64,000 nucleotides of DNA, from contig NC_079489.1 of the NCBI RefSeq assembly GCF_020520425.1, positions 81,598,810 through 81,662,809 of the forward strand. Direction: 5' to 3'. Within the stretch, counting starts at the first letter, position 1. Each line of letters starts with the position of its first letter. The position numbers were made by a program, and so were the translations under genes. Below are positions 2,466 through 49,449 of the stretch, piece by piece. The notes beneath the pieces were generated by a model. It made no database searches, was not told the DNA's origin, and saw only the letters and a program-made list of their open reading frames with translations. This DNA comes from Spinacia oleracea. Lineage: Eukaryota > Streptophyta > Magnoliopsida > Caryophyllales > Amaranthaceae.

Positions 2466-3754
2466 TTAGGTGAGATCTGAATCATCCTTTTTGGCCTTTT
2501 TGGTATTTATGTTATATACTTGTTTGTCGTGATCTAATAAATAAAGTCCATTGACTAATCTAGCAGATCCATGAAACATCTCTTTAAAATAAAACGAACA
2601 ACTATTGTCTTTTATTAAAAAGGAAAATCCCTTAGCATCTAAGCAAGAAACTGAAATGATGTTTTTAGTAAGACTTGGAATATGGAAACATTCTTCCAGT
2701 TCCAAAACTAGCCCGGAGGGCAACGACAAATAGTAAGTTCCTACAGCTAATGCAGCAATCCGTGCTCCATTTCCCACTCGTAGGTCGACTTCACCCTTGC
2801 TTAACTTTCTACTTCTTCTTAGTCCCTGTGGATTGGAACATAAGTGTGAGCCACAACCTGTATCTAATACCCAAGAAGTTGAATTAGCAAGTATACAGTC
2901 TATAACGAAAATACCTGAAGATGGAACGACTGTTCCGTTCTTCTGATCTTCCTTTAGCTTCAAGCAATCTCTCTTCCAATGCCCCTTCTTCTTGCAGTAG
3001 AAGCATTCGGATTCAGAAGTGGGTTGACTGACCTTCCTCTTTACAGATTTGGCGCCAGTTTGCTTAGTTGGGCTGGCCTTGTTGCCACCTTTCTTAGCAT
3101 TCCTCTTCTTTCCAGATTTCTTGAACTTGCCCCCACGCACCATAAGCACATCCTGCTTATCACTTTTGAGCGTCTTTTCAGCGGTCTTCAGCATACCGTG
3201 AAGCTCAGTGAGAGTTTTGTCCAGACTATTCATACTGTAGTTCAGTTTGAACTGATCATACCCGCTATGAAGAGAATGGAGGATGGTGTCTATAGCCATT
3301 TCCTGAGAAAATTGCTGATCCAGCCGACTCATATTCTCAATGAGTCCAATCATTTTGAGAACATGTGGACTTACGGGCTCGCCTTTCTTAAGCTTGGTCT
3401 CAAGAATTTGCCTATGAGTCTCGAATCTTTCGACTCGAGCCAGATCTTGGAACATGTTCTTCAACTCACTGATGATTGTGAAAGCATCTGAGTTGATGAA
3501 CGTTTTCTGCAGATCCGCATTATGGTGGCGAGCATTAGACATTTCACATCCTTGTTGGCATCAATCCAACGATTGAGGGCTGCCTCAGTGACCCCATCGC
3601 CTGCGGCTTCGGGCATCGCGTCTTCTAGGACATACTCCTTTTCTTCCTGCATAAGAACTATTTGCAAGTTCCTTTGCCAGTCAAGGAAGTTTTTCCCGTT
3701 CAACTTCTCCTTTTCGAGAATTGATCGAATGTTGAATGAATTGTTGTTTGCCAT
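2466..3754 (-). pseudogene. copia A gag-protease (one frameshift, one terminal nonsense codon)
   Basis: The start is the ATG at 3754 (MANNNSFNIRSIL), shared with copy D. The Gag region (UBN2-type) is followed by a CCHC zinc knuckle, CFYCKKKGHWKRDC (about 3010-2968), with all four ligands, then the aspartic protease site WVLDTGCGSHLC (near 2875-2845). Alignment with copy D shows a 1-nt deletion near 3520 in A, after CLMLAT. It shifts the frame so that the N-terminal 80 or so codons and the rest are read separately. A TAA at 2468-2466 then replaces a Tyr codon just before the integrase zinc finger. Gag and protease would act in cytoplasmic virus-like particles. Without the two lesions this would be one gag-pol frame. 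Confidence 0.9.
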
Positions 3755-6599
3755 ATTAAAAACTACAATTGAAAAGAATAAACAAATAAATAACCATTCA
3801 CAGTTTCTCTTAATAAACTTAAATTCTAGCATACATGCATAATTCAATGTTTATTAAGCATTTTATTCAAGTTATGTGTTCCGGCAGGTGTGAATAAAAT
3901 GATTCCAAGATCCTAAAATCATTGAAGAACTAAGCACAGTTTGTCGACTTAATCCTAAAACATCTTAGGTAAGCAAAAGCCTTTTGCTAATAGTCTAGAA
4001 ACTATTCTTGGTTGATAGGTACGTCTAAGAACTTATTAGGTAAACCTATCGATTTTGCCACGACATAAAAGGACTCCTTACTTATATCGTTGAGTTTCAC
4101 CAAAACTAACATGTACTCACAATTATTTGTGTACCTTGCCCCTTTAGGACCAATAAGTAACACCTCGCTGAGCGAAAACTATTACTAGATTGATGTAAAG
4201 GATATCCAAGCAAGTGTATATTTTGGCATGGCACCTTTTAACTCAATTTTTAAGTTTGGAACTTAAGGCTCTTACTATGTTGGTTAGATTTTAAGTGAAC
4301 TAAAATCCTTAATCATGCAACATAATCAAGCTTTGATCTCATGCATTTTAAGACATATTTAAAAGCAATAAATAACTTAAAACATGCATAAGATAAATGT
4401 GATCTAGTATGGCCCGATTTCATCTTGAAGCTTTAACTTCAAAGTCCGTCTTGAAAATCTCCGTGGGAGGCACCATTTTCTTCAAATAGAATAAGCTATA
4501 ATTAAAACAAATTACAACTATTTGATGGTACGCAGACCATATTTGAATTGAAAAACGACTTTGGTACTTTAGACCAATTACATTCAAATTAATGGTACGC
4601 ATACCATATTTTCTATCCTATTTGGGCCATACTAGTCACTTCATAACCTGCAAAACAGTACATATACAATATATACCATTCACCCATTCATTATCATGAA
4701 TGGCCCACATAGCTGGTTAGTAAAACACATTATGCATCACGTAAACATTTGCAGCAATTAATCAAGGGCACCAATAATCTACCAATTATTCAGTCCTTAT
4801 TAATTCTAATCAAGTTGTTTTAACCTTAAGGATTTGTAGACCTAATCAAGAGTTTATGACTAAAAAGGGGTTCCCACTCAAACCAATAAATTCATATGCT
4901 TTACTAATTTTAAACATAAAAATGTATTTCTAGTCTAACCGGAAACATACAAATTTCATTAAAATTTAAAGCTCATATAAATTTATAATTGAATCCAAAA
5001 GTTTAATTTAATTTCAGTCGTATTTAAATTAATTCATGATTTTAATTTTAGTAAAATAATTAGAATAAATAAAAATTTATTATAATTACAATATTCAAAA
5101 TTAAAATCCAAGAAAATAATTTAAATTATTAATTTTAAAATTAATTAAAATTACGTAAACTGAAAATTTCAAATTAAACATTCAAAACGATCTAATCGCA
5201 ACGCAAACACCCTACGCATCGCACGCCCATGGGCCACACGCACACAGCCATCGCTGGCCATGTGCACGCAGCCCATGCGCTGCGTCGCATAGCTGCTGCT
5301 TCTACCCTTCGCAAGCCATCGCGCGAGCTGGTGCTCGCTGCGCGCGCGCCAGCGCTCGATGCACGCGAGCATGTGCTCGCTGCGCGCGCGCCAGCGCTCG
5401 ATGCACGCGAGCCATCGCTCGCTGCGTTCGCTCGCTAGCGCTCGCTGCACGCGGGCCAGCGCTCGCTTCGTGCACTCGCCAGCGCATGCTGTGCGCGCTC
5501 GCTAGCGCTCGCTTGGTGCGAGCCAGCGCTCGCTGCGCGCGGCATCGACGCTGGGCGCAGCACTCGTGGCACGCGAGCTTGCGCTCGCTGCGCACGAGGC
5601 TGCGCGCGCTTGCGCGAGGCAGTGCGCGTTGTGGCGCAGCTCGCTTGCTGCCCCCACGCGTCTGCCGTGCCTTGCCTTCGCCCATGCCCATTCGTCCATT
5701 GCTCATAGCCCACGACACAAGGCAGGGCTGCTGCCTTGTGCTCGTGCACCATGCCCTTGCTCATTGCATTCGTGCCGCATGGGCGACGAGCTCCCTTGCT
5801 CGTTGTCACATGCCCGCACTATACAACACCTCTTAAGGGTAACACGTTGCTCCCTTGCTTTGTGCGTGCAAGTTATATGAACGAATCGCATAAAATTTAA
5901 AAAATTTATATTTAATATTAAATGACAAATTAATAAATCAATATTAATTTCATAATTTTAGGGCGAAAAATCGAAAATTTATTATTCAATTGATTTCCGA
6001 TTAACATGGATTCAAGTTTAGGTCATAAAAATTTAAAATTTATCATAAATTTACAATTTTTATGGTGGTTTTTAATCATAGGTATCTAATTAAATTATAA
6101 TTAATTATGAAAATCAAATTAATTCTAAATTATTCTAATTTTCAACAAATTAATCATAATTACAAATTAGATTGCATAATTAACAAGGCTAGGCATTCAA
6201 ACTTGTTAAACATATACAGTAGGTCAATCAAAAATTCAAGATTTATCAACAAGAATCGCAAATATTTAATTTAACATCTTAAATTTACGAAATTTTGCAT
6301 TCGAAAAACTAAAACCTTCGAAAAGTCATAGTTAGGCTTCGAATTTGAGAATTCTGGGTTCGGCAGAAAAAAATTATTTTTGTCAAAATTTTAGAATGCC
6401 TTTTACATGCGGAATTGACACAAAAATCACTCGATTTGGATGAGTAACGAAGAAACTGCCGAAAAACTGCGTACGTATAATTAAATAAACGCAATTTGCA
6501 ATTAATTAACAATTACGAAAATTAATCACCCCTTTTAATTCTTGCAAATTTGTAATATTTAACCATGTTCATGCAATTTAGATTATGAAAATAATAAGA
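3755..6599 (-). other. copia A untranslated leader between primer site and gag
   Basis: This is 2.8 kb of AT-rich sequence with no credible ORF. It is homologous, inverted, to the leaders of copy D (43040-45668) and copy B (28854-31370). Short blocks such as the repeated phrase around TGGTCTGCGTACC and the segment ending CACACCTGCCGG are conserved across copies. On the minus strand a pyrimidine tract ending in AATTGTAG lies just before the gag ATG, as in copy D. A GC-rich island interrupts it at 5160-5880. Confidence 0.8.
5160..5880. repeat. GC-rich minisatellite-like island inside the copia A leader
   Basis: An abrupt GC-rich block in an otherwise AT-rich leader. It is built from variants of GCTCGCTGCGCGCGCCAGCG. 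Two near-identical 42-bp units start at 5331 and 5373, and degenerate copies run to about 5560. Because the units are rich in GC and often a multiple of three, all six frames stay open and give spurious Arg/Ala-rich ORFs. Equivalent islands are at 29555-29985 (B) and 43770-44200 (D), in the same place but with different sequence. Confidence 0.85.
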
Positions 6600-9837: not shown

Positions 9838-11772
9838 CCTCCATATCTGGAAACTGGATGTCATACTTAGCCACAAATGAAGTAACTTTCTCCATGTGAG
9901 AGTCCCATCCATTATCTCTCATCTTTTGCAAATTGCACTTTGTTACATCAACCATGGTCATTGCATTTACAATATATTGATCATGCTTCTGCAAAGCCTT
10001 ATTTAACTCATTTGTAATTCCAAATATACTAACCATCAAATGCGCAACAAACAAAAAATCAAAAGACATCAATAAATGAGTGATAGATTAAGCTCTATTT
10101 GAATCAAGTTGAATGGAAACTTCTCCTATGGAATCTAGTGACTCAAGGATCGTTGGATACAAATCAAGCACATTCAAGATTGTTTTAAAGTGAGACCCCC
10201 AACGAGTGTCACAAGGTCTACCTAAGCCAAGTTCTTGATTCAAACCTGTTCCCGTTTCAAGATCATCTGAGGAAAGTGCATCCACAACATGTTGAGCTTG
10301 TATCTTTCGAAGAAATTCTTTCTTTTTTGGTGAACCACCCACAAAATTTAACAAGGGAGAAAGGACATCAACAAATAGCCAAGCACAATCGATATTCTTC
10401 TTAGCAAGAGCAACTTGTGTCAATTGTAATTGATGAGAAAAACAATGAACAAAGTATGCACAAGGAGATTCATTCAATATTAAAGTTTTAAGTCCATTGA
10501 TTGAACCTTGCATATTGCTAGCACCATCATAACCTTGATCCCGAACTCTAGAGAGGGACAAAGAATACTCCATAAGTAAAGACTCAATAGCCGCTTTAAG
10601 AGTCAAGGAAGTAGTATCAAGAACATGCACAATACCAATGAAACGTTCACATATTTCTCCCTTTTTGTTGACATACCTCAAACAAAGAGCCATTTGCTCT
10701 TTATCAGAAATATCGGCAGACTCATCGGCAAGAATAGAAAAAAAACCTTTACCAAGTTCTTCAAGGATTGATTTAGTTGTCTCTTTGGAACAAGAATTGA
10801 TGATATCCTTCTGGATTTCAGGAGATGTGAGTTGACAATTACCAGGGGCCGACTTGAGAACCACTTTAGCATAATCAGGATCGTGAGCGGAAAGGAGTGT
10901 CAACAATGAATAATACTTACCCCTACTCAATGAAGTTTTTTTTCCCATCATGACCACGTAGAGGCAATCCTTCACTCAAAAGCCACCAGATAGTTTCAAT
11001 TGAAGCTTCTAGCCGCGTCCGATAGACATTTCTAGCTTTCACCGATTGATTAGACAAAGCGCTAGTAATGGAAGCCTTTTTACTTTTGAATGTCTCCATA
11101 GCAAGCATAGCATTATTGTGAGCACTCATGTGCAAACCCACATGACTCTTGAAGGCTTCAGTTTTATTCCAAGCACAAAATCCCTCATTAACAAAAGCAT
11201 CACCTCCAGCAGTATCTTCACTCTTGAACAAGTAACAAATGAAACAAAAAGCCTTGTTCTTTGAAACACTATACTCAAGCCAAGGTCTCCAAGTCTCAAA
11301 CCATTTGACATTAAAGCGACGCATTTTCTTCCCAAATGAAGTTTAAGGAAATACAAAATCATCAGGTTGACAAGGCTTTCTTAGAATGTATGTTCTCCTT
11401 ACCAAATCTCTATCACTGGGATGAAAATGAATTATCTTTCTCCTTAATCCGGGGTCATGTGGAAGGTGGACAATGTCAAAGGCACTTAATCTTTCATCAT
11501 TTTGAGGGAAATTATGTGGTGGACAAGGATTTTGTTCATTTGCTTGAGGCAAAGGAAGATCTTGTTCACTTTATAGAAATGGAGGAAGGTTTTGTTGAGT
11601 GAGGAGGATTTTGTTCACTTTCTTGAGATGGAGGCAAATTTTCTTGAGTAGGAGGAACGTTTTGTTGAGTTGGAGGAACATTTGGTTGAGTTTCTTGAGA
11701 TTGAGGAGAAGCTAAATGGGTAGTTCTTTTGGTAAAGAAACTTGAAATATCCCTTGTATTTTTTCTCTTCAT
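9838..11772 (-). pseudogene. hAT transposase with TTF-type zinc finger and DUF4371 region
   Basis: The start is taken at ATG 11772 (MKRKNTRDISSFF), directly after a splice-acceptor-like TACAATTTTCAG on the minus strand. It is followed by a low-complexity PPTQ/PPSQ tract, a TTF-type region (FNVKWFETWRPWLEYS, then KNKAFCFICYLF), and the RNase H-like transposase core with ILADESADISDKEQ, GYDGASNMQG, CFSHQLQL and CDTRWGSH. Lesions: TAA at about 11342-11340 replacing Gln before TSFGKK, a frameshift near 10940 between GLPLRGHDGKK and SLSRGKYY, and TAA at 10087-10085 in an otherwise continuous frame. The C-terminus is lost at the Tat insertion. It resembles the plant proteins named zinc finger MYM-type protein 1-like. 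Not functional. Confidence 0.88.
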
Positions 11773-15258: not shown

Positions 15259-16491
15259 ATGGATAACATCCTTTGTTGGAATGTGAGGGGACTGAACAGG
15301 AAGGATTAACAATTAAGGGTGAGGAAGTTCATTCTTTCTCATCAAGCAAAATTGTTCAGTCTCCTTGAAACGAGGGTTAAGACTCCTAAACTAGGGGATC
15401 TATACCTTAATGTTTGTCCAGGGTGGTGCTTTACTACCAACCTAAGCCAGCATAAAAATGGGAGAATAGTGGTTGGATGGGACCCTATTTCTTTTGATGT
15501 TGATGTTAAATTCATGAGCTCTCAAATGGTGCATTGCCTTGTTACTTCTAAGCCTGCTGGTCACACTTTTTGGTGCAGCTTCATTTATGGACACTCTGAT
15601 AAGAAAGACAGGGAGGCTCTTTGGCAGGACCTTTCTCACTTTGCTACCTCAATTTCCTTGGCTTGGGTGATCATGTGTGATTTCAATGCCATCATGGCTA
15701 TTGAAGATAGGGTGGGCTCTCCTGTAAAATGGGGGGAAATTCAACCAATGAGATCATGCATGTCTTCTTGCAATCTTGCCGAAGTTAAAACTATGGGGAG
15801 ACATTTCACTTGGACAAATAAGCAGGATGGTGCAGCTAGAGTTTTCACTAGGATTGATAGGGTCCTAGCCAACTCTCAATGGGAAGATATCTTCACTACT
15901 GCTGAAGCTACTTATTTGCCAGAAGAGGAGTTTGATCATTGTCCAATGATCATGAGCTGTTATAGAGTGGTCCACCAGAAAAAGCCTTTTAGATTCTATA
16001 ATATGTGGGTTACTTCTGAGCATTTTATTCACACAGTTCAGGAAAACTGGAGCAAGCCAGTTCATGGTTGTCACATGTTTAGGGTTATTCAGAGACTGAA
16101 GTGGATTAAGACTGACTTGAAACTACTTAACAAGAATGGTTTCAGCTCAGTTGAGGCTACTGTCATCAGAACACACAATGACCTTGTTCTTGCACATAAT
16201 GCACTTCATGCTGCCCCTATGGACAGTGTTCTAGCCTCAGTGGAGAAAGCTGCAAGTGAGGCCTACAGAACTGCTCATCACAATTATCTATCTTTCCTTC
16301 AGCAAACAGCCAAACTACAATGGCTCCAGTTGGGGGATGATAACACCAGACTGTTTCATATGAGTATTAAGCATAGAAGAAGGCAAAATAAGATCAACTC
16401 CATCCATGATCAAGAGGGTAATTGGATTCAGACTAGTGATGGGGTGCAGCAAGCCTTCACTCAGTTCTACAGTTCCCTTTTTGGTGACTCC
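15259..16491 (+). pseudogene. LINE ORF2, apurinic-type endonuclease portion
   Basis: The start is ATG 15259 (MDNILCWNVRGLNRKD), 16 codons before a TAA at 15307-15309. The same frame then stays open to the CACTA insertion. Endonuclease/exonuclease/phosphatase motifs in order: CWNVRGLN, LLETRVK (catalytic Glu), VIMCDFNAI (Asp/Asn), RHFTWTN, RIDRVLAN and FDHCPMI (Asp-His). This domain nicks target DNA for target-primed reverse transcription. The linker to the RT, ending FYSSLFGDS, is cut by the CACTA element at 16492. The single early stop probably replaced a Lys codon. Confidence 0.9.
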
Positions 16492-16700
16492 CACTAGTAG
16501 AAAAAACCCCTGTTGCAGCCCCCTTGTTGCAGCGTACATGTATAAATACGCTTTAACAACCAGTCGGTCAACGCGGGTCAAACCCTTTAAAGGGTTATCG
16601 CAGCGTACATTTTAGTTGTTCGCAGCAAATGTGTTTGTTGCAGCGTACAAAATAAAAGCCCGCAGCAACAACCCGACTTTATTGCAGCGTACATGTTATT
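16492..16700. repeat. CACTA left TIR and subterminal repeats
   Basis: An 18-bp terminus identical to the right end, then repeated TTGCAGCGTACAT-type motifs near 16529, 16600, 16638 and 16684, sometimes paired with GCCCGCTGCAA or TTCGCAGC. Such subterminal repeats are where CACTA TNPA-type proteins bind. Confidence 0.9.
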
Positions 16701-16779
16701 GCCCGCTGCAACAAGTCCGCGTTTCAAAATTTTTTACTTTCCTAGGTTGCAACAAACCGCGCTCAAACGAGCGGGCTCA

Positions 16780-17229
16780 AACGTACGTTGTTCCTTCTCT
16801 TCTAGCTCCAAGCTTTTTCCCTTAAACAAATATCCAAGAAGCCGTCGAACTCAGCCCTGCGTCGCCGTCGAACTCAGCCCTGCGTCGCCGTCGAACCCAA
16901 GCGTTGCTCAGCCCTGCGTCGCTGTCTTCGCCGGTGTGTGGTGTTCTCGCCTCATCTCCCCCATCCCGTTCAATTCTCGCGCGGCCTGTCACTGAAAGAT
17001 ATATTCTTGGTCGGCCGGGGGTTCAGCATCTCCCCGTCGCGTCGTGGTTCCGGTGGTTGCTCGGCGTCGTGGTTCCGGTGGTTTCTGTATGGTGTGTTCA
17101 ATTTCTATTTTCGTTTTTTATTTTCGTTTTCAGATTAGGGTTCAAATTTAGTTTTTGATTTTCGTTTTCAGATTAGGGTTCAATTTTAGGTTTATGATTG
17201 ACAAAATCACATAGTTTTGAGTTCGATGA
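16780..17229 (+). other. leader-like region upstream of captured exons
   Basis: C/T- and GC-rich sequence that looks like a plant 5' UTR. It includes a 23-bp tandem repeat (16842-16864, 16865-16887, and a partial third copy) and a twice-repeated TTTTCAGATTAGGGTTCAA segment (17125-17180), then a T-rich, intron-like stretch. No clear TATA box. It could be the element's own promoter and leader or a third captured fragment; I cannot tell which. Confidence 0.5.
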
Positions 17230-17875
17230 TTTATGGGTTTCTTAGGGTTTGTTCAAATGATGTTTATGGGGATAAAGTCATAGCAACCAGTGCAGTGTTT
17301 GGCACAGAAATCTGGCCGGCTGCTGAGTATGGTAGAACCATGTATACCATCCGTCAGAGGATTGGTCCTCTCTTCATGAAAATGCAGAAGCGCTTTGGAA
17401 ACCTTGATTATGCTGGTGAGTTGTCTGAGAAGGATATTATTCGCGCTGAAAGGAATTCTGGTTTTATCAGTGACCGTGTCAGAGAGATTCAAGTAAGCCA
17501 ACCCAACCTCTCACCACACTACTTAGTACCTATATCATCTATTCATCTGTAAACTTATATTACAGTTTTTATTTCTTTGCAGCGCCAAAATTACCAGAGA
17601 AAGATGGAGACTAAAGAAAGTAGGGAAAAGGACCTCCGGGAAGGCCTCCAACTTTACAAGTATTTATCAATCCATTCTTCTGTTTGCTGTTACTCAGCTG
17701 TTTAATTATGTTATTTCATCTTCTTTAATTTTCTTGTTTTTTATAACATCAAAGGAGCGGAAAATACGAGGAAGCACGAGAAAAGTTTGAATCTGTTCTA
17801 GGTTCTAGGCCTACTCCAAATGAAGCTTCAGTGGCTAGTTACAATGTTGCTTGTTGCTATTCTAAGCTTAATCAG
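17230..17875 (+). pseudogene. captured MET1/ZKT-like gene fragment, three exons
   Basis: Exon pieces at about 17238-17492, 17583-17659 and 17755-17875, separated by introns with GT/AG borders. The translation has EIWPAAEYGRTMYTIRQRIG, MKMQKRFG and SEKDIIRAERNSGFISDR, then a charged stretch, then a TPR-like GKYEEAREKFESVLGS and ASVASYNVACCYSKLNQ. I recognise this as the C-terminal K-box/TPR part of MET1 (ZKT), a chloroplast thylakoid protein involved in photosystem II assembly. The N-terminal transit peptide, PDZ domain and last exon are absent. No stop interrupts these exons. It is a transposon-borne copy and not the gene. The fragment identity is from memory of the family. Confidence 0.75.
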
Positions 17876-18240
17876 GTATTACTCGTCTCCCTCAATCCTC
17901 TTCTTCCTCAGTTATTTTCTACTTTGGTTATTATGGGATATCCAATTATGAGTACCCTGGTTGATGTGCTGACAATTATTTTTGTAACACAATCGAGCCT
18001 GAAATAATTAATACCCTGTATTCCGTGGGTTTAGTCGAGATAACAATGTAATTTGATTAGGAACTGCATTGTGTCCTGAAGATTTAGGGTTGTGAGTCAC
18101 GATTAAAGAAATTAAGTTAAGATGTATGTTTGCATTAAAGGTTGTTGTTGACTTCTTAATTTATATGTAGAGAATAAGTCAATCAGACATGTATGGCATG
18201 ATTAATTTTCTAAAGTTAATGTAAACTTGTTTTCTTGCAG

Positions 18241-19280
18241 GCTATCACTTCTACTGGGACAAAGAAGGGCGAGTTGTTTTTGGCTGATGTCAGCACTAAG
18301 TTGACAAACAAGAATATTACCACCGATGTGAAAGTTGATACCAACTCCAATGTGAGTTTGTTTATTTGTATTACTACGAATTGATTCTATGATACATTAC
18401 GGTTTCATTGGTTTATAGGTTTTTATAATTGGTAATTGTGTAAAATTTGGTGACAGATAGCATTGCTTTCTATGAACATCTTGTTTTACATAATTGGAAT
18501 CTATTGTAATCTGATTCCAACTTCTTTGCTGTTTCCGTCTTCCGCTCCTAGCTTTTCACCACCATTACGTTGATGAACCTGCCCCTGGCTTGAAGGCTAT
18601 TTTTAGTTTCCGTGTTCCTGATCAGAGATCTGGCAAGGTACCATACAATTATCTTTCTAGTATTTTCTTACCTAAAGAGGCATGGTTCAAGATACTACGG
18701 GATAATGGTTCTAATTTGTGGAGTATAAATTATGTTAACAGGTTGAGCTTCAGTATTTGCATGAGTATGCTGGCATCAGCACAAGCCTTGGTTTGACAGC
18801 AAACCCCATTGTCAACTTTTCTGGTGTTTTTGGAAACAGTACTCTTGCTTTGGGTACTGACCTCTCATTTGACACTGCTTCTGGAAACTTCACCAAATGC
18901 AATGCTGGGCTGAGCTTTACTAATGATGATCTCATTGCATCTGTGAATGTGTAAGTAGTTTTTGTTATACTAATCAGCAGATTATCACTTTGGTATATCC
19001 ACGTGCAACATTTAATTGCTGTTCAGAAATTAAAGAAAGAGAATCACTCCTATTCTCATTTAACAATTTTCATATTGGTAATTCATATTATCTCTATATG
19101 CGTGTATCCTAGAAATAAATTTGGATTCTGCTTGTCGAAAACTACTTAATAATGTTCTAATCTTTCACCTTTGGCTGTTGTTGAGTGTATCATTTGAAAG
19201 CTGGATACTGGATATACATTTCTGATACACTTGTGATTTTGTTTACTTTTGGGTACTGCAGGAACGACAAACTGGACATC
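18241..19280 (+). pseudogene. captured VDAC (mitochondrial porin) gene fragment, three exons plus a sliver
   Basis: Exons at 18241-18351, 18552-18637 and 18742-18950 with GT/AG borders. An acceptor at 19260-19261 is followed by about 19 nt of a fourth exon (NDK). Translations include [82 protein letters not shown] and [18 protein letters not shown]. These are unmistakable for plant VDAC, the outer-membrane beta-barrel channel, and cover roughly its first-third to middle strands. Exon 18552-18637 is 86 bp with a 1-nt deletion after TTIT, which breaks the frame. The N-terminal helix and the C-terminal half are missing. Confidence 0.93.
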
Positions 19281-21640
19281 TTTATACTCATTTCAATCTA
19301 TTTATTCACATTTAAGGCTTATTGGGTCGTTATAGGTCATATTAAGGCTAAAATGAAGCATTTTCCCTCCCAACTTTGAACTAAAGAACCTAAGGACTCA
19401 TTTTATACTTATTACATGTTTAATATGAATAGTTTTAACTTTCTAACACTCATTCCAATCTACTTATGCAAATTTAAGGCTTGTTTGGTCGTTATAGGTC
19501 ATATTAGGCTAAAATGAGGCTTTTTTGCTCCCAAATATGAAATAAAGAACCTTAGGACTCATTTTAAACATATTAAATGTTTTATATGATTAGTTTTAAC
19601 TTTACAAGACTTAATCCAATCTATTTATGCACATTCATGACTTCTTTGGCCGTTATAGGTCATATTTAGGCTAAAATGACATTTTCGCTCCCAACTTTGA
19701 TCTAACGAACTTAAAAACTAATTTCAAACTTATTACATGATTCATATGATTATTTTTAACTTTCTAGGACTCATTCCAATCCATTTATGCACATTTAAGG
19801 CTCATTGTGTCGTTATAGGTCATATTTAGGCTAAAATGACATTTTCGCTCCCAACTTTGAACTTAAGAACCTAATGACTCATTTTAAACTTATTATATGA
19901 TAAATATGCTTAGTTTTAAGTTTCTAAGACTTATTATAATCTATTTATGCACATTTAATGCTTGTTTTATCGTTATAGGTCATATTTAGGATAAAATAAG
20001 GCATTTTCGATCCCAACTTTAAAATAAAGAACCTAAGGACTTATTTTAAACATATTACATGATTAATATGCTTAGTTTTAAGTTTCTAAGACTTAATCTA
20101 ACTACTTATACACATTTAAGGCTTGTTTGGTCGTTATAGGACATATTTAGGCTAAAATGACATTTTCGCTCCCAACTATGAACCAAAGAACCTAAGGACT
20201 CATTTTAAACTTACTAAATGTTTTATATGCTTATTTTTAACTTTCTAGGACTCATTCCAATCCATTTATGCACATTTAAGGCTCATTGTGTCGTTATAGG
20301 TCATATTTAGGCTAAAATGACATTTTCGCTCCCAACTATGAACCAAAGAACCTAAGGACTCATTTTAAACTTACTAAATGTTTTATATGCTTATTTTTAA
20401 CTTTCTAGGACTCATTCCAATCCATTTATGCACATTTAAGGCTCATTGTGTCGTTATAGGTCATATTTAGGCTAAAATGACATTTTCGCTCCCAACTTTG
20501 AACTTAAGAACCTAATGACTCATTTTAAACTTATTATATGATAAATATGCTTAGTTTTAAGTTTCTAAGACTTATTCTAATCTACTTATACCCATTTAAT
20601 GCTTGTTTGATAGTTATAGGTCATATTTAGGCTAAAATGAGGCATTTTCGCTCCTAACTTTAAAATAAAGAACCTAAGCACTCATTTTAAACTTAATACA
20701 TGTTTAATATGCATAATTTTAACTTTATAAGACTCGTTCCAATCTATTTATGCACCTTTAAGGCTCATTAGGTCGTTGTAGGTCATATTTAGGCTAAAAT
20801 GACATTTTCGCTCCCAACTATGAACTAAAGAACCTAAGGACTCATTTTAAACCTACTAAATGTTTTATATTCTAGTTTTAACTTTCTAGGACTTATTCCA
20901 ATCCATTTATGCACATTTAAGGCTCATTGTGTCGTTATAGGTCATATTTAGGCTAAAATGACATTTTCGCTCCCAACTTTGAACTTAAGAACCTAATGAC
21001 TCATTTTAAACTTATTATATGATAAATATGCTTAGTTTAAGTTTCTAAGACTTATTCTAATCTGTTTATGCACATTTAATGCTTGTTTGATAGTTATAGG
21101 TCATATTTAGGCTAAAATGAGGCATTTTCGCTCCTAACTTTAAAATAAAGAACCTAAGCACGCATTTTAAACTTAATACATGTTTAATATGCATAATTTT
21201 AACTTTATACGACAAGTTCCAATCCATTTATGCATATTTAAGGCTCATTGTGTCGTTTTAGGTCATATTTAGGCTAAAATGACATTTTCGCTCCCAACTT
21301 TGAACTTAAGAACCTAAGGACTCATTTTTAAATTATTATATGAAGCTTAGTTTTGAGTTTCTAGGACTTATTCTAATCTACTTATACCCATTTAATGCTT
21401 GTTTGATCGTTATAGGTCATATCTAGGCTAAAATAAGGCATTTTCGCTCCCAACTTTAAAATAAAGAACCTAAGGACTCATTTAAAACTTATTACATGTT
21501 TAATATGCATAATTTTAACGATCTAAGACTCGTTCCAATCTATTTATGCACCTATAGGCTCATTGGGTCGTTATAGGTCATATTTAGGCTAAAATGACAT
21601 TTTCGCTCCTAACTTTGAACTAAAGAACCTAAGGACTCAT
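19281..21640 (+). repeat. tandem array, about 15 copies of a 160-bp unit, inside the CACTA
   Basis: The phrase TCGTTATAGGTCATATT recurs at 19327, 19489, 19650, 19810, 19970, 20131, 20291, 20451, 20611, 20773, 20932, 21091, 21253, 21407 and 21568, so the unit is 154-162 bp. Each unit also contains GGCTAAAATGA, TTTTCGCTCCCAACTTTGAA and AAGAACCTAAGGACTCATTT. Copies 8-10 and 11-13 match better at three units apart (20451/20932, 20611/21091, 20773/21253), a 480-bp higher-order period. The array starts directly at the broken VDAC exon. Confidence 0.95.
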
Positions 21641-22099
21641 TTTAGACTATTAGGACATTGTCATTAGTTTCTTGAATGTTAAAATGTGATATTTAATTTG
21701 TATTTAATCTAATGTTTAATTTAAATTTCTGTTTTTGTAAAGGTCTACACTCCGAGGATTGCGCCTTATGCGAGGAATTTGATGTGGTTCGTGAGCAATG
21801 GGCTAAGTTTTTTACCAACAAGTATTTATTATTGGCTTTAGCGCGCTTGATCGAGTTGGTTTAGTTGTTATAGAATAAATTTTATATTAAAATGTATGTT
21901 TATGTTGAAATTGGAACATATATTTAAATGTAATATGTGCACTTTGGTTTTGGGATATATAGTATACAAAACTCCAGTTGTTGTTTTTATATTTGTTATA
22001 CAGGTTGCGTTATTCTATTATTGTTTTGACAGGTTTCTATATTTGGTGCAAGGCACTCTACGTATCCCTAAACAAAATTAGAATTTTCCCCCCAAAAGT
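21641..22099 (+). other. CACTA region between array and right subterminal repeats
   Basis: AT-rich, with one more complex patch at 21741-21840. It can be read as a short open stretch (CEEFDVVREQWAKFF) after an acceptor-like TTTTTGTAAAG. It may be a last exon of the original CACTA gene. I do not recognise a named family in it. Confidence 0.4.
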
Positions 22100-22494
22100 G
22101 CTTTTTTGCAGCGTACATATATGTTGTACGCTGCAACAAGGGAAAAAAATTTCGCAAAAATTCAGACTTGTTGCAGCGTACAAATAAATGTACGCTGCAA
22201 AAAATTGAGTAATTCAGACTTGTTGCAGCGTACAAATAAATGTACGCTGCAAAAAGTTGAGTCTTTTGCAGCGTACATATATATGTACGCTGCAACAAGT
22301 CCAAAATTTTGCCAAATTTTTGGCACTTGTTGCAGCGTACATCTAAAAGCCCGCTGCAACAAATCACTTTTTGCAGCGAACATTGTACGCTGCAACAAGT
22401 TCAGACTTGTTGCAGGCCCCCCAGTTGCAGCATACGATGTACGCTGCAACAGGGGTCTAAAAGCCCGCTGCAATAAGGGTTTTTTCTACTAGTG
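22100..22494. repeat. CACTA right subterminal palindromes and TIR
   Basis: About seven palindromic units pair TTGCAGCGTACAT with ATGTACGCTGCAA. One, at 22266-22295, is a perfect 30-bp palindrome. The unit spacing is about 45-60 bp. The region ends in the TIR at 22477-22494. The density of inverted copies is much higher than at the left end. Confidence 0.9.
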
Positions 22495-22497
22495 TCC

Positions 22498-24338
22498 ATA
22501 CCAGTAAAAGAAGTAGTGATAGACCAAGGTCCAAGGCTCACTGCAGAGCATCTAGCTAGCCTCTCTTCTACTATCCAGGAGAAGGATATTAGGAGAGTTC
22601 TTAATGCAATCCCAAACAATAAGGCACCTGGGTTGGATGGTTTTAACAGTAAGTTCTTCAAGGCTTCCTGGCCCATCATAAAAGATGACTTGTGCTTAGC
22701 CATTTCTGATTTCTTCACTACAGGAAAGATTCTCAAGGAAGTGAATGTCACTTCTATTTCTCTTGTTCCTAAAGTTACAGTCCCAAACTCTGTTGGTGAC
22801 TTTAGACCAATTGCTTGTTGCTCAGTAATTTATAAATGCATCTCAAAGTTGATGTGTGACAAGCTTAAACAGGTGTTACCAGATATTATCTCACCCACTC
22901 AGGGTGCCTTTGTTGCAGGAAGATCAATCTTGCATAATGTGATGATTTGCCAAGATATTATTAAGTCATATACTAGAGGCAATGCTAAACCTAGTTGCAT
23001 GATGAAATTAGACCTCAAGAAGGCTTATGACACTGTAGAGTGGAGTTTTATAGAGGAAGTTATGAAGGAGTTTGGCCTTCCCCATCACTTTATCCAGTTG
23101 GTTATGACTTTCCTAACCACTACTCAATATTATCTCCTTATAAATGGGGTTCCTTCTCCCCTAATTCAACCTAAAAGAGGTTTAAGACAGGGGGACCCCC
23201 TTTCCCCCCTATTATCCACTCTTTGTATGGAGTACTTTTCAAGAATTCCCCCCTATTATTCACTCTTTGTATGGAGTACTTTTCAAGAATTATGAAGCTG
23301 GTTGCATCTCATCCCACTTTCAAACATCACTCAAGATGTAAGACAGTCAATCTCAATCACTTGTGCTTTGTAGATGACCTCTTACTCTTCTGTCATGGAG
23401 ATGTTACTTCTTTCCAGCTTATGTTGGAGGGTCTTCAGCTGTTCTCTTCTTCTACTGGTTTACAGGTGAATCCTAGTAAATCTTCTATCTACTGCTGTGA
23501 GTTGTCTACTCATACAAAAAACATCATCACTGGTCTTTCTGGCTACAATATTGATAATTTCCCATTCAGATACCTTGGGGTTCCCATTAGCCCTAAGAAA
23601 ATCAAGCTGGGTGACTGCAATCTGTTGGTGGAGAAGATGGTGGCTAGAATTAAAGTCTGGAGCTCAAGACACCTGTCTTTTGCCGGGAGAATACAGTTGG
23701 TAAACTCAGTCCTTATGAGCATCAGTGTGTATTAGTGTCAGTTGTTTCTCCTCCCTAACTCCATCATTAAAAAAATCAATTCCATCTGTAGATCATACTT
23801 GTGGTTTGGAGCATATGATGATGGTAGACCTGGTAGTGTCAACTGGGACAAGCTTTGTGATCCTAAGGAACAAGGTGGTCTTGGGTTCAGCAACTTAGCT
23901 CTATGGAACCAAGCAGCTGTGGGAAAGTTGGCATGGGCAGTTGAGAAAAAGCAAGATAATTTATGGGAGAAATGGATTCATGCTTTGTATATAAAGAACA
24001 AGAACTGGCAGCTATTTTCACTATCATTAGCTGCTAGTTGGCTTGTGAAGCACATTTGCAAGGTCAAAGGGATGTGTACTGACAAGCTTAATGGTCCTAG
24101 CTGGCTCACTGACTCTAAATACTCTATCAAGGGTATGTACATCAAGCTCTGCACTCCTTCAGAAAGAACTCAATGGGCCAGGTATATTTGGAACAGACTG
24201 TTTGTTCCTAAACATAGGTTCTCCCTGTGGTTAGCCTTGTTGGATAGGCACAAAACCAAGTATAGACTTCATCAATATGGCATAAGCACTGATAATCTTT
24301 GTGCCATTTGTGGTTCTGCCCCAGTGACCAGTGCTCAT
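22498..24338 (+). pseudogene. LINE ORF2, reverse transcriptase and first half of zinc-binding domain
   Basis: This continues the frame broken at 16491. Removing the CACTA and one TSD copy restores the reading without a shift. RT motifs: NNKAPGLDGF, FRPIACCSVIYK, GAFVAGRSI, KLDLKKAYDTVEW, RGLRQGDPLSP, the FVDD catalytic box (near 23370) and FRYLGVPIS. Damage: a 44-bp tandem duplication at 23204-23291 breaks the frame, and TAG at 23734-23736 replaces Trp. The RVT zinc-binding region (RLFVPKHRFSLWLALLDR, then CAICGSA) is cut by the solo LTR at 24339. Confidence 0.9.
23204..23291 (+). repeat. 44-bp tandem duplication inside the LINE RT
   Basis: Copies at 23204-23247 and 23248-23291 differ by one base. 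The duplicated piece codes for the residues after the RGLRQGDPLSP box. Because 44 is not a multiple of three, it frameshifts the RT. This is most likely a replication slip after insertion. Confidence 0.92.
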
Positions 24339-43039: not shown

Positions 43040-45668
43040 TCTAATTAATTCCATAATAATTTTTTAACATGGTTAAATTTTATAAATTTGCAAGGAATTA
43101 AAAGGGGTGATTAATTTCGTAATTTTAATTAATTGCAAATTTGCGATTATTTAATTATGTGTTCGCAGTTTTTCGGCAGTTTCTTCGTTACTCAACGAAA
43201 TCGAGTGATTTTTATGTCAATTCTGTATGTAAAAGGCATTCTAAAATTTTGACAAAAAGATTTTTCTTCTGCCGAACCCAGCATTCCCAAATTCGTAGCC
43301 TAACTATGACTTTTCGGAGGTTTTAGTTTTTCAAAACGCAAAGTTTGTAATTTTAAGATGTTAAATTAAATATTTGCGCTTCTTGTTGTTAAATCTTGAA
43401 TTTTTGATTGACCTACTGTATATGTTTAACAAATTTATATGCCTAAGCTTGTTAATTATACAACCTAATTTGTAATTGTTATTAATTTGTTGAAATTCGA
43501 ATAATTTAGAATTTAATTTGATTTTCATAATTAATTGACGATTTAATTAGGTATCCATGATTAAAAACCACCATAAAAATTGTTAATTTTTGATAAATTT
43601 TAAATTTTTATGACCTAGATTTGAATCCATGATAATCGGAAATTAATTGATTAATAAATTTTCGATTTTTTGCCCTAAATTTATGAAATTAATATAATTT
43701 ATTAATTTGTCAATAAATTTGAATTAAAAAGTTTTAATTTTCATATAATTGGCTCATAAATTTTGCACGCACAAAGCAATGGACGCTACGTGTTACCCTT
43801 AAGGGGTGTTGTATAGTGCGGGCATGCGACGACGAGCAAAGGAGCTCGTCGCCCATGCGGTACGAATGCAGCGAGCAAGGCAAGCATGGCGCGCGCGCCA
43901 GGCAGTGATGCCTGGGCGTGTGTGTGCTGCGCGATGGGCGATGGGCGATGGGGGCAAGGCACAAGCCGAGCGAGCAGACGCATGTGGGCAGCGATGGATG
44001 CTGCGCCACAGCGCGCGTTGCCTCGCCCAGCGAGCAGACCAGTAGTGTTGAGCAGGTGGGCTGCGCGCAGCGTGCCAGGGCTGGCTGCGATGCGTGTGGC
44101 CTGCTCGTGCATTACTGTGCGATCAATCGTTGGGGAGCTGCTGCCTCATGACTCGATGAGGCTTGGGCGCAAGCCCAAGTGCCTCTTCTTGTTACGATTG
44201 ATGCGCTTTGAATTTTATTTTGAATTTTCAGTTCGGAAACGATTTTAATTAACTTTAAAATTCGTAATTTAAATTGTTTTCTCAGAATTTAATTTTGAAT
44301 AATCTAATTATTATAAATTCTAATTTATACTAATTATTTTACAAAAATTAAAACCTTGATTAAATTAAGATTTATTTATTTAATTCAACTGAAAATAAAT
44401 TAAAGGATTCAATAAATAATTTATATGAGCTTTAAATTTTAATTAAATATGTATGTTTCCGGTTAGACTAGGAAATACAATTTATGTTTAAAATTAGTAA
44501 ATCATGTAAATTTATTGGTTTAAGTGGGAGTGTTTAGTCATAAACTCTTGATTAGGTCTACAATCCTTTAAGGTTAAAACAACTTGATTAGAATTAATAA
44601 GGATTGAATAATTGGTAGATTATTGGAACCCTTGATTAATTGCTGCAAATGTTTATGTGATGCATAATATGTTCTACTAACCAGCTATGTGGGCCATTCA
44701 TGATAATTAATGGGTGAATGGTATATATGGTATATGTACTGGTGTGCAGGTTATTGAAAAGTGACTAGTATGGCCCAAATAGGATAGTAAATATGGTCTG
44801 CGTACCATTAATTTGAATGTAATATTGGTCTAAAGTACCAAATTTTATTGCTTTAAATATGGTCTGCGTACCATCAAATAGTTGTAATTAGTTTAATTAT
44901 AGCTTATCCTATTTGAAGAAAATGGCGACTCCCATGGTGAAATTCAAGACGGAGTTTCCAATCCATTTTCAAGACGGACTTTGAAGTTGAAGCTTCAAGA
45001 TGAAGTCAGGCCATACTAGATCACATTTATATCTTATGCATGCTTTAAGTTATTTATTGCTTTAAATATGTCTTAACTATGCATGAGAATGTGGCTTGAT
45101 TATGTTGCATGATTAAGGATTTTAGTTCACTTAACCAACATAGTAAGAGCCTTAAGTTCCAAACTCTAAAACTAAGTTAAAAGGTGCCATACCAAAATAA
45201 CACTTACTTGGATAAACCTTTACATCAATCTTAGTAATAGTTTTCCGCCATAGCGAGGTGTTACTTATTGATCCTAAAGGGGTAAGGTACACAAATAATT
45301 GTGAGTACATGTTAGTTTTGGTGAAAATGAACGATATAAGTAAGGAGTCCTTTTATGTCGTGGCAAATGTGATAGGTTTACCTAATAAGTTCTTAGACGT
45401 ACCTATCAACCAAGAGTAGTTTCTAGACTATTAGCAACGGCTTTGCTTACCTAAAATATTTTAGAATTGAGTCTAAATACATAATGTGCTTAATTCTTCA
45501 ATTATTTAAGGATCTTGGAATCATTTTATTCACACCTGCCGGAACACATAACTTGAATAAAATCCTTAATAAAAGATAAATTATGCATGTTTGCTAGAAT
45601 TTGAATTTATTAAGAGAAACTGTGAATGGTTATTTATTTGTTTATTCTTTTTTAATTGTAGTTTTACT
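43040..45668 (+). other. copia D leader, with GC-rich island at 43770-44200
   Basis: 2.6 kb without a credible ORF, homologous to leaders A and B. The GC island again starts just after GGACGCTACGTGTTACCC. A pyrimidine-rich stretch ending AATTGTAG (45637-45660) lies 8 nt before the gag ATG and looks like a 3' splice site. The same is seen in A. Confidence 0.8.
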
Positions 45669-47082
45669 ATGGCAAACAACAATTCATTCAACATCCGATC
45701 AATTCTCGAAAAGGAGAAGTTGAAGGGGAAAAACTTCCTTGACTGGAAACGGAACTTGCAAATAGTTCTTATGCAGGAAGAAAAGGAGTATGTCCTGGAA
45801 GAGGCGATGCCCGAAGCCGCGGGCGATGGGGTCACTCAGGCAGCCCTCAATCGTTGGAAAGATGCCAATAGGGATGTGAAATGTCTAATGCTTGCAACCA
45901 TGAGTGCAGATCTACAGAAAACGTTCATCAACTTAGATGCTTTCACGATTATCAGTGAGTTAAAGAACATGTTCCAAGATCTGGCCCGAGTCGAAAGATT
46001 CGAGACTCATAGGCAAATTCTTGAGACCAAGCTTAAGAAAGGCGAGCCCGTAAGTCCACATGTTCTCAAAATGATTGGACTCATTGAGAATATGAGTCGG
46101 CTGGATCAGAAATTCTCTCAGGAAAAGGATGTAGACACCATCCTCCATTCTCTTCATAACGGGTATGATCAGTGCAAGCTGAACTACAGTGTGAATAGTC
46201 TGGACAAAACGCTCACTGAGCTTCACGGTATGCTGAAGACCACTGAAAAGACGCTCAAAAGTGATAAGGAAGATGTACTTATGGTGCGTGGGGGCAAGTT
46301 CAAGAAATCTGGCAAGATGAGGAATGCTAAGAAAGGTGGCAACAAGGCCAGCCAGACTAAGCAACCTGGCGGCACCAAATCTGAAAAGAAGAAGGTGAGC
46401 CAACCCACTTCTGAATCTGAATGCTTCTACTGCAAGAAGAAAGGGCTTTGGAAGAGATATTGCTTGAAGCTTAAAGAAGATCAGAAGAACGGAACAGTCG
46501 TTCCATCGTCAGGTATTTCCGTTATAGACTGTATACCTTCTAATTCAACTTCTTGGGTATTAGATACAGGTTGTGGCTCACACTTATGTTCCAATTCGCA
46601 GGGACTAAGAAGAAGTAGAAGGTTAAGCAAGGGTGAAGTCGACCTACGAGTGAGAAATGGAGCACGGATTGCTGCATTAGCTGTAGGAACTTATTATTTG
46701 TCGTTGCCCTCTGGGCTAGTTTTGGAACTGGAAGATTGTTTCCATGTTCCAAGTCTTACTAAAAACATCATTTCTGTTTCTTGCTTAGATGCTAAGGGAT
46801 TTTCTTTTTTAATAAAAGACAATAGTTGTTCGTTTTATTTAAAGACATGTTTTATGGATCTGCTAGATTAGTCAATGGACTTTATTTATTAGATCACGAC
46901 AAACAAGTTTATAACATAAATACCAAAAGGCCAAAAAGAATGATTCAAATCTCACCTATCTGTGGCATTGTCGATTAGGCCATATTAACTTGAAACACAT
47001 AGAAATAGATCAAAAGAAAGGAATTCTAGAACCATTTGACTTAGAGGATTATGGTAATTGCGAATAATGTTTACTTAGCAAA
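45669..47082 (+). pseudogene. copia D gag-protease and pre-integrase finger
   Basis: The start is ATG 45669 (MANNNSFNIRSIL). An upstream in-frame ATG at 45591 is unlikely, as the pyrimidine tract lies between. The frame is open through the zinc knuckle at 46422-46463, which reads CFYCKKKGLWKRYC: the ligand His is Leu and the next Asp is Tyr. The protease DTG is at 46563-46571. A 1-nt deletion near 46840 ends the frame, another near 46925 shifts it again, and TAA at 47065-47067 interrupts the pre-integrase zinc finger. Confidence 0.92.
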
Positions 47083-47999
47083 ATGACAAAGCAACCTTTC
47101 TCTAAAGGTGGAGAAAGAGCAAATGAACTATTGGGGTTAATCCATACAGATGTATGTGGACCAATGAGTACAAATACTAGAGGTAGTTTCATCTACTTTA
47201 TCACTTTCACTGATGACTTTAGTAGATATGGTTATGTCTACCTAATGAAGCATAAGTCTGAATCCTTTGACAAATTCAAGGAATTTCAGAGTGAAGTAGA
47301 GAATCAATTAGGCAAGAAGATTAAGGCACTGCGGTCTGATAGAGGCGGTGAATATCTGAGCTATGTATTTGATGACCATCTGAAAGAATGTGGAATTCTA
47401 TCAGAATTGACTCCTCCCGGAACACCTCAATGGAACGGTGTGTCGGGACGGAGGAATATAACTTTGCTAGACATGGTTAGATCAATGATGGGTCAGGCTG
47501 AACTTCCAATAGAATTTTGGGGACATGCACTAAATAAAGCTGCACTCACTATAAACAGAGCTCCGTCTAAAGCTGTTGAAAAGACTCCATATGAGTTATG
47601 GTTTGGAAATCCACCAAAAGTGTATTTCCTTAAGATTTGGGGATGTGAAGTATACGTCAAACGATTAATTTTAGACAAACTTCATCCAAAATCTGACAAA
47701 TGTATCCTTGTGGGCTACCCAAAGGAAACAAAGGGGTATTACTTCTACAATACATCTGAGAGCAAGGTGTTTGTTGCTCGAGATGGTATCTTTTTGGAAA
47801 GAGATCACATTTCCAAAATGACAAGTGGGAGAAAAGTAGACCTCGAAGAAATTCGAGTCGAACAACAAACTCTAGAGAATGCTCAAGATGACATTCAGGA
47901 TGAAACTCAGAGATCTTTAGAAGTATCTGGTGAGAATCAAGGACCATCTAGAAATGTAACCCCGCGTAGATCGCAGAGATATAGATCTCAATCGGAAAG
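47083..47999 (+). pseudogene. copia D integrase, catalytic Glu lost, cut by Tat C
   Basis: Open frame with HTDVCGPM (first Asp), LRSDRGGEY (second Asp, 47338-47340), and the DDE position at 47446-47448, which is GGA (Gly) in the context NGVSGRRN where copy A has Glu. The spacing Asp-35-Glu position is normal. The C-terminal GKKP-like region continues to 47999, where the Tat LTR begins. The apparent ORF end at 48033 lies in the Tat LTR. Confidence 0.93.
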
Positions 48000-49449
48000 T
48001 GTAGACACCTACTTTTGTCCCCATTCCCGATAGGGAAGGTTCGATGATGAGAACATAAATCTCCACTTGGCAACGCATCTCCTATAAAATAACGAATCTC
48101 AATCACCTTTTCATTTCAGCTAAAACTGCTATTTATGGAAACCTGCTAAGAATGGTAACTGCCGTAAAAGGTAGTTGTTAAAAGTGGCAAAGTCATAAAA
48201 GATAGAAACCTGTTAGAATTAGGTGTTGCACTCCAACATAAATCCTAAAAGAGATAGAATTTGCAAAAGGAATTCTATTCCTGGTATAATTCGAAAGTAA
48301 GAGTTACGTATTAATTAAAATCCTAACGAACCTAGAGTTCGTAACGGGCCCAGACGCATTCCTTCATAAAGTTAATACGCACTAAAAGACTCGGATAAGT
48401 CTCAAAAGCTCCGCGTTCTAAAGAGTCCAAATCTGACAAAAAACTCGGCCCAGATCCCATTTTCAACGCCTGGGCGCGGAAAATGCCTAGGGCCGTGTCG
48501 TCTCCGAATTCTTTTTGGATTCGTATTCTAAAAATCTATCTTTCCACAAACTCTTTCCCTATAAATACAGCCTCAAAACCGACTTGAAGAGGACACACAA
48601 CACACAATTCCATAACCTGAGTATTGACTCTAGCCTTAAGCCTAGCCTCACGCTGCGAAATTGATCCGGCGTTCTGTCGCAATCGACCCAAAAGTCGAAC
48701 AAAACGCATCCTGCCCCTTGTAGCTGATGAATTAAGCCTAAATACTGGAACACTGCTTAGAAACCCGAGATTCGTTAAATAAAAGGAGAAATAACAAAGC
48801 CAAGTGGTTAGTTTTCTGAGAACTGTAACACACCTCTCAAGGGTGCGTTGTAATGTGTCCCTCATATGATTTAATCGCTTTCATCACCCTTTTATAAAAT
48901 TGTTGAACTATTAACTTGATTGATCTATCACGCTTAATAAGATAATACCTCGGACAATTGAATTATCATGCTAGGTACCTTAAATCAATCTAAATAAGAT
49001 AATCACGATCGATTTAGTGTTATGTGTTGCATATTGCTAAAATTAATTCAGAATAGTTTAATAGTTTAACGCATGTCCCTTCAATTATTTATGTTGAGCT
49101 AGTAAGGATAACCTGCCTCTGGAGTTATCGATGAGCACTCCTCTCGGTAGTCACAGTCCCCCGAACTCTCAATCTCTGCCCTGCGGGTGTACTTTGAGCG
49201 ATCCCCACACCAGGGATCACAAGGGAACCTATGGTCGTCGTGGTCGAACATAATTGCACTCCCTTTATGTCACGATAACCGGGTTTTGTCAGTTTTTCTC
49301 ATTGTCGTTAAAAACTGAATGACGACTCCTATATTACTAGTCGATTGGGTGTAAACTCACAGGAAATCTAACTACACTTGATCTGACGACGTCACGCCCA
49401 CGAGGGACGAGGTCATGTATTAGCCTCGTGCTTTTTCGACCCCCTCAGA
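48000..49449 (+). repeat. Tat C 5' LTR (1450 bp)
   Basis: TGTAGACACCTAC to CCCCCTCAGA (the other copies end TCACA). TATA box at 48560-48567. About 36 bp of the hairpin region near 48470 is deleted relative to the other two LTRs. Confidence 0.92.

Follow-up and report, generated by a model that had tools for sequence, protein, structure and literature searches.

The locus examined here raises the question of how fragments of two host genes came to lie side by side, introns included, within one transposable element of Spinacia oleracea, and whether they were acquired together or one after the other. The element, a non-autonomous CACTA transposon of 6003 bp, occupies positions 16492-22494 of a 64,000-bp stretch of the genome (the window; NC_079489.1, positions 81,598,810 to 81,662,809) and carries parts of MET1, a chloroplast gene, and of VDAC, a gene for a mitochondrial channel. 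Comparison of the window with the donor genes and with the other copies of the element showed that the capture took place in two stages: VDAC was acquired first, and MET1 later replaced a part of it. A first-pass annotation of the window had proposed that the two genes were brought together at the DNA level. That part of the proposal held, but the two were not captured together, because elements that carry only VDAC keep an undisturbed intron at the joint.

Captured gene fragments and their donors

In the cargo, exons of MET1 come first and continue in frame into exons of VDAC, with the introns retained. Its parts are listed below, where L024 is the VDAC donor gene.

17186..17270, + strand: left VDAC remnant, donor intron (L024 2455-2539)
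17271..18020, + strand: MET1 segment, 750 bp, donor exon 1 to intron 3
17271..17492, + strand: MET1 exon 1, 3' part
17583..17659, + strand: MET1 exon 2 (donor GT at 17660)
17755..17875, + strand: MET1 exon 3
17876..18240, + strand: hybrid intron, GT end from MET1 and AG end from VDAC, phase 0 on both sides
18021..19280, + strand: right VDAC segment (donor L024 ~2942-4237)
18241..18351, + strand: VDAC exon
18552..18637, + strand: VDAC exon, one base fewer than in the donor gene
18742..18950, + strand: VDAC exon
19262..19280, + strand: last VDAC exon, first 19 bp

The joined exon translation, with X at the frame break, was searched against a protein collection. Identity to spinach proteins was 97% for the MET1 half (SOVF_136150) and 94% for the VDAC half (SOVF_032670); the VDAC part also matched Pfam Porin_3 (E 5.9e-35). 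The MET1 identity assigned in the first-pass annotation was therefore correct, but its description as a C-terminal part was not: the segment starts within donor exon 1 and stops within intron 3, approximately residues 150-293 of 356, and both ends of MET1 are absent. The three VDAC exons that had been recognized are present, together with the 19 bp of the last exon, and the middle one is one base shorter than its counterpart in the donor gene, a loss found in 19 of 19 elements. Phase 0 applies both to MET1 exon 3 and to the VDAC exon that follows, so the hybrid intron joins them in frame. The introns are kept, as had been noted from the letters, and capture via RNA was rejected for this reason.

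Both donors were located. The VDAC donor (L024, C1:124716043-124718240) showed identity of up to 99% and holds exons absent from the elements; the same search also gave VDAC-like loci that are more distant, and another two fragments of the last exon. Among the matches listed for MET1, all but one lay in elements, the exception being the donor gene (L029, C6:101167691-101170309). The two donors lie on different chromosomes, and a host gene at the window site was rejected, since both map elsewhere. Family termini were looked for around the donors and were absent from 9.9 kb at the VDAC donor and 3.1 kb at the MET1 donor.

Copies of the element in the spinach genome

When one VDAC exon was used as a DNA query, 21 matches were obtained, of which 20 covered the exon completely; these 20 comprised one VDAC gene (L024) and 19 elements, including that of the window, and all 19 were read. 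MET1 with the same junctions was present in 13 elements and absent from six. Perfect 3-bp duplications flanked 18 of the 19 (the exception being L014), which excludes chance terminal inverted repeats, and they were also found in all three whole elements with other cargo. Chance resemblance of the cargo was likewise rejected, the donor genes and 19 elements having been found. Six elements were letter-identical along their whole length with differing flanks, so the element transposed as a unit. Outside the tandem array described below, the MET1-bearing elements differed by 0.11-0.56% (eight representatives compared).

Beyond the loci that were read, seven more with VDAC fragments were listed (C2:64675868, C5:124730469, C6:67384121, C3:61324057, C1:125933366, C6:33968190, and C6:23761494). 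The VDAC fragments at L028:5682-6201 and C6:23761494-23761670 extend further into the last exon than those of the elements, and may be what is left of a capture that was longer at first.

Order of capture

Four of the six elements without MET1 (L020, L021, L025, and L026) contain an unbroken VDAC intron across the MET1 site; the other two (L022 and L027) carry different cargo at the left. In the window, the 750 bp of MET1 take the place of 396 bp of VDAC intron that are present in L020. The divergence of the two parts from their donors, in which exons and introns are counted together, differs several-fold. MET1 showed 4 differences in 750 bp in the window (0.5%) and 4-8 over the 13 elements, whereas VDAC showed 51-55 differences in 1256 bp, or about 3-4%, over the 17 of 19 elements that were aligned (all except L022 and L027); a local BLAST comparison of the window VDAC with the donor gave 36 differences over about 1259 bp. 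The lower divergence of MET1 agrees with the order VDAC first, MET1 later. The plant substitution rate is near 7e-9 per site and year, and at this rate the capture of VDAC would date back roughly 2-3 million years and that of MET1 under half a million. In an unrooted tree of 12 sequences, which likewise omitted L022 and L027 and in which L009 represented the six identical copies, the MET1 and VDAC-only forms were split at 99% ultrafast bootstrap.

These data also bear on a capture in one step, in which MET1 and VDAC would have been joined in the host genome beforehand. The fusion in frame through a single intron speaks for such an origin; however, a host locus with both genes was not seen among the scored matches, the donors are on different chromosomes, and the several-fold difference in donor divergence speaks against it. 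The undisturbed intron of the four elements named above already contradicts this origin, which we consider vanishingly improbable and which was rejected because VDAC-only elements exist.

Both joints of the MET1 segment contain short stretches common to the two genes. At the left joint, VDAC ...TATGGG and MET1 ...GTAGGG have GGG in common (17268-17270, 3 bp), and at the right joint, MET1 ...CCTGTA and VDAC ...CATGTA have TGTA in common (18017-18020, 4 bp). Among 200,000 simulated random joints, at least 3 bp occurred in 6.2% and at least 4 bp in 2.1%, and both together are expected in about 0.2%.

Structure and insertion site of the element

The termini, the duplication, and the remaining features of the element and its target are as follows.

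16492..22494, + strand: whole non-autonomous CACTA element, 6003 bp
16492..16509, + strand: left terminal inverted repeat, CACTAGTAGAAAAAACCC
22477..22494, - strand: right terminal inverted repeat, inverted form of the left 18 bases
16489..16491, no strand: left target-site duplication, TCC
22495..22497, no strand: right target-site duplication, TCC
16527..16693, + strand: left subterminal repeats, four copies of GCAGCGTACA
22106..22456, no strand: right subterminal repeats, GCAGCGTACA, five direct and six inverted
19286..21652, + strand: 160-bp tandem array, 14.8 units
15319..16491, + strand: target, LINE-like open frame, left half, no Pfam match
22495..23295, + strand: target, LINE-like element, reverse transcriptase half (RVT_1, E 4.3e-27)

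The two termini share 18 identical bases in inverted orientation, and all 15 copies of the subterminal repeat lie near the element ends, 4 at the left and 11 at the right, in both orientations. The 3-bp TCC duplication stands on either side of the element; the exact CACTA termini and this duplication had been reported in the first-pass annotation and were confirmed at the same positions. The insertion splits an open frame resembling a long interspersed nuclear element (LINE) into 15319-16497 and 22492-23295. By direct reading of the sequence, this frame runs from flank to flank once the element and one TCC are removed; its right half encodes a reverse transcriptase, and a Pfam search with its left half gave no match. 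A tandem array of about 15 units occupies much of the right part of the element. The longest stop-to-stop open reading frame (ORF) inside the element encodes 136 aa, and none of 10 internal stop-to-stop ORFs had a Pfam match at E 0.01, so the search for a transposase in the element was negative, in agreement with the earlier reading. Taken together, the observations support the assignment to the Pack-type CACTA elements, with MET1 and VDAC captured at the DNA level.

Sister elements with other cargoes

The left 289 bp of the element, used as a query, matched 40 places at 99-100% identity (the best 40 of 1905 first-look candidates). Among those whose cargo was read, L033, L036, and L037 carry a kinase fragment, L035 carries PEARLI-4, and L034 carries another fragment without a gene name that begins where VDAC would begin. 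Three further combinations were picked from the VDAC fragments: VDAC with kinase (L031), VDAC with an unnamed fragment (L030), and VDAC with ARM repeats (L032). In L031, the kinase fragment lies between VDAC 2455-2617 and 2797-3620, which makes it the second case of replacement with VDAC on both sides. An additional cargo of 2.6 kb was observed within the tandem array of L021 (L021:5269-7876), 1269 bp of it in common with the cargo of L032.

PEARLI-4 is represented by one full gene (C1:128031477-128034836) and nine further places, of which L035 was read. For seven of the nine, the distance to a listed left end is 1241-1264 bp and for one it is 4.8 kb; the last has no listed left end. In L035, the PEARLI-4 fragment joins the array at a common TTTA (4 bp); microhomology of 3-4 bp was thus present at three of the four joints tested (two of MET1 and two of PEARLI-4).

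The elements form a multicopy family that keeps its ends fixed (the left terminus with its leader, and the right terminus with the 160-bp array) and swaps its interior, one transposon family thereby assembling several gene chimeras. Whether the cargo has been renewed repeatedly by cutting out and refilling on one chassis, each short inner gap being filled from an unlinked gene by template switching guided by microhomology, so that forms of all stages, from ancestral through intermediate to derived, would coexist in a family that may still be moving, appears to us an evenly balanced question.

Mechanism of cargo replacement

The history that we favor, and consider moderately probable as a whole, begins with a VDAC-bearing CACTA ancestor. 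As the compared copies show, this ancestor carried about 1.8 kb of the VDAC gene with its introns; in one lineage, an internal stretch of VDAC intron was exchanged for the 750-bp MET1 fragment, and the MET1 form then amplified to at least 13 copies. The exchange itself may have started with a break or gap within the element; the synthesis that filled it would have jumped at 3-4 bp of microhomology to an unlinked gene as template and then returned, and a transposase supplied in trans by a putative autonomous partner would have mobilised the product.

The model favored in print for Pack-CACTA, in the accessible parts of the sources, is the fusion of two neighbouring insertions (PMC8903248; PMC13317346): two related elements flank a host gene, the ends that face each other are lost, and the remaining outer pair moves as one with the gene inside. 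Close pairs of family ends do exist, since second right ends are found about 645 bp (L018:7406-8052) and 392 bp (L027:6978-7370) away in 2 of 18 copies. However, these pairs are inverted, and therefore no normal left-right element would arise from them. The two-sided cases lack a short inner piece (396 bp for MET1 and about 179 bp of the donor for the kinase) and show no duplication; by a hand calculation assuming independent uniform truncations over the 5.5-kb L020, both gaps together are expected in about 0.2%. The absence of family termini from the surveyed surroundings of both donors also speaks against such a fusion, which, to account for the structure, would require both partners to have broken within the same few hundred VDAC bases, twice. 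We therefore regard tandem fusion as an unlikely alternative. Judged from the sequences, the small internal replacement is better accommodated by gap filling with template switching.

Several points weigh against the history based on gap filling. Two fusing elements broken within the same VDAC intron would give an identical structure, and second family ends do lie close by at L018 and L027. The known two-sided replacements amount to two cases. The joint tests cover MET1 and PEARLI-4, the donors of the kinase and ARM-repeat fragments not having been located, and the left PEARLI-4 joint (after VDAC 2767) consists of a 2-bp filler without microhomology. Finally, an autonomous partner was sought among 150 listed matches to PF02992 (TNP2-type transposase), which were compared by eye with the 40 scored left ends, and none of them could be linked to the family termini.

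PF02992 is abundant in the genome, the 150 scored matches coming from 1375 candidates. The sole pair within 10 kb, at L037, was rejected as a partner locus: the left end there is that of an element of 4155 bp with kinase cargo, and the transposase is part of other DNA. L038:4099-8638 (C1:12618000-12627900) contains a CACTA transposase frame of 1092 aa and, after it, a 160-bp array that resembles the window's array (about 78% similarity) on the opposite strand; family termini and subterminal motifs were absent from 9.9 kb at this locus. Many of the listed matches have the score and frame length of L038, which suggests a recently amplified autonomous family. Elsewhere in the window, a frame at 10088-10975 (- strand) contains DUF4371 (E 7.9e-49), a domain known from hAT-type transposases, and Copia-type gag and pol/integrase frames lie at 2466-3542 (- strand) and 45591-48033 (+ strand).

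Coding potential of the chimera

The best protein match of the chimera was P0001, a 256-aa spinach protein named porin of 36 kDa-like, with 87% identity over 91% of the chimera. L014 alone has the change of CTTTTC to CGTTTC, creating a GT splice donor that would allow the frame-broken VDAC exon to be skipped. P0001 carries the matching sequence, and therefore L014 is probably the source of this annotated gene model; one copy of the chimera thus probably passes as an ordinary annotated gene. The annotation of P0001 and the splice donor of L014 could be taken as signs of a working new gene under selection. However, the protein contains neither end of MET1 and is missing the greater part of the VDAC barrel, all 19 elements share the one-base loss, and P0001 was the single chimeric protein among 120 matches listed. 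Because this loss is shared, a functional protein is unlikely in most copies, and selection on a working fusion seems highly improbable on these grounds.

Comparison with known systems

Literature searches, in which subscription journals were thinly covered, found no publication on this spinach family and none pairing CACTA with VDAC. The first-pass annotation had named the element the clearest candidate for an undescribed unit; it is not wholly undescribed, since its kind is published and one copy is probably annotated as P0001. The family is new in that these searches did not list it, and its type, Pack-CACTA, is known. Multi-locus Pack-CACTA and stepwise nested capture are already in print (Gisby and Catoni 2022, PMC8903248), and the accessible part of that source reports multi-locus cargo most for maize.

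According to the same part, the Pack-CACTA of Arabidopsis, rice, and maize resemble the spinach family in their CACTA ends, 3-bp duplication, lack of transposase, and gene fragments with introns (PMC8903248). Relative to what is described there, the spinach family resolves two stages and two donors base by base, and newer cargo has taken the place of a short internal stretch of older cargo. In Zm-Pack-PIF cluster 18, internal acquisition was also stepwise, with a 163-bp gene piece followed by 58 bp of another gene in four elements; however, these elements belong to another superfamily, the pieces are much shorter, and insertion, not replacement, was described (PMC8903248). The Chenopodium CACTA elements, for which satellite arrays and gene pieces have been published, include the CACTA-like Jozin elements, which in the available sections of the source have captured gene fragments and, in quinoa, a satellite array (171 bp) close to the 3' end but, unlike the spinach family, possess a transposase (PMC8978399).

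How DNA transposons gain gene pieces is still debated. Because the spinach genome holds the donors together with elements from before and after the capture, the two leading models give different predictions that can be checked base by base. The animal Pack-TIRs, attributed to gap filling or FoSTeST, are similar to the spinach elements in the short internal gap, the microhomology of a few bases at the breakpoints, and the later amplification, and differ in coming from animals; their authors considered a test in plants (Pack-MULEs) worth exploring, as far as the accessible text goes (PMC8277862). If the proposed history is true, the spinach family would exemplify gap filling in a plant and would argue against tandem fusion as the sole route of Pack-CACTA capture.

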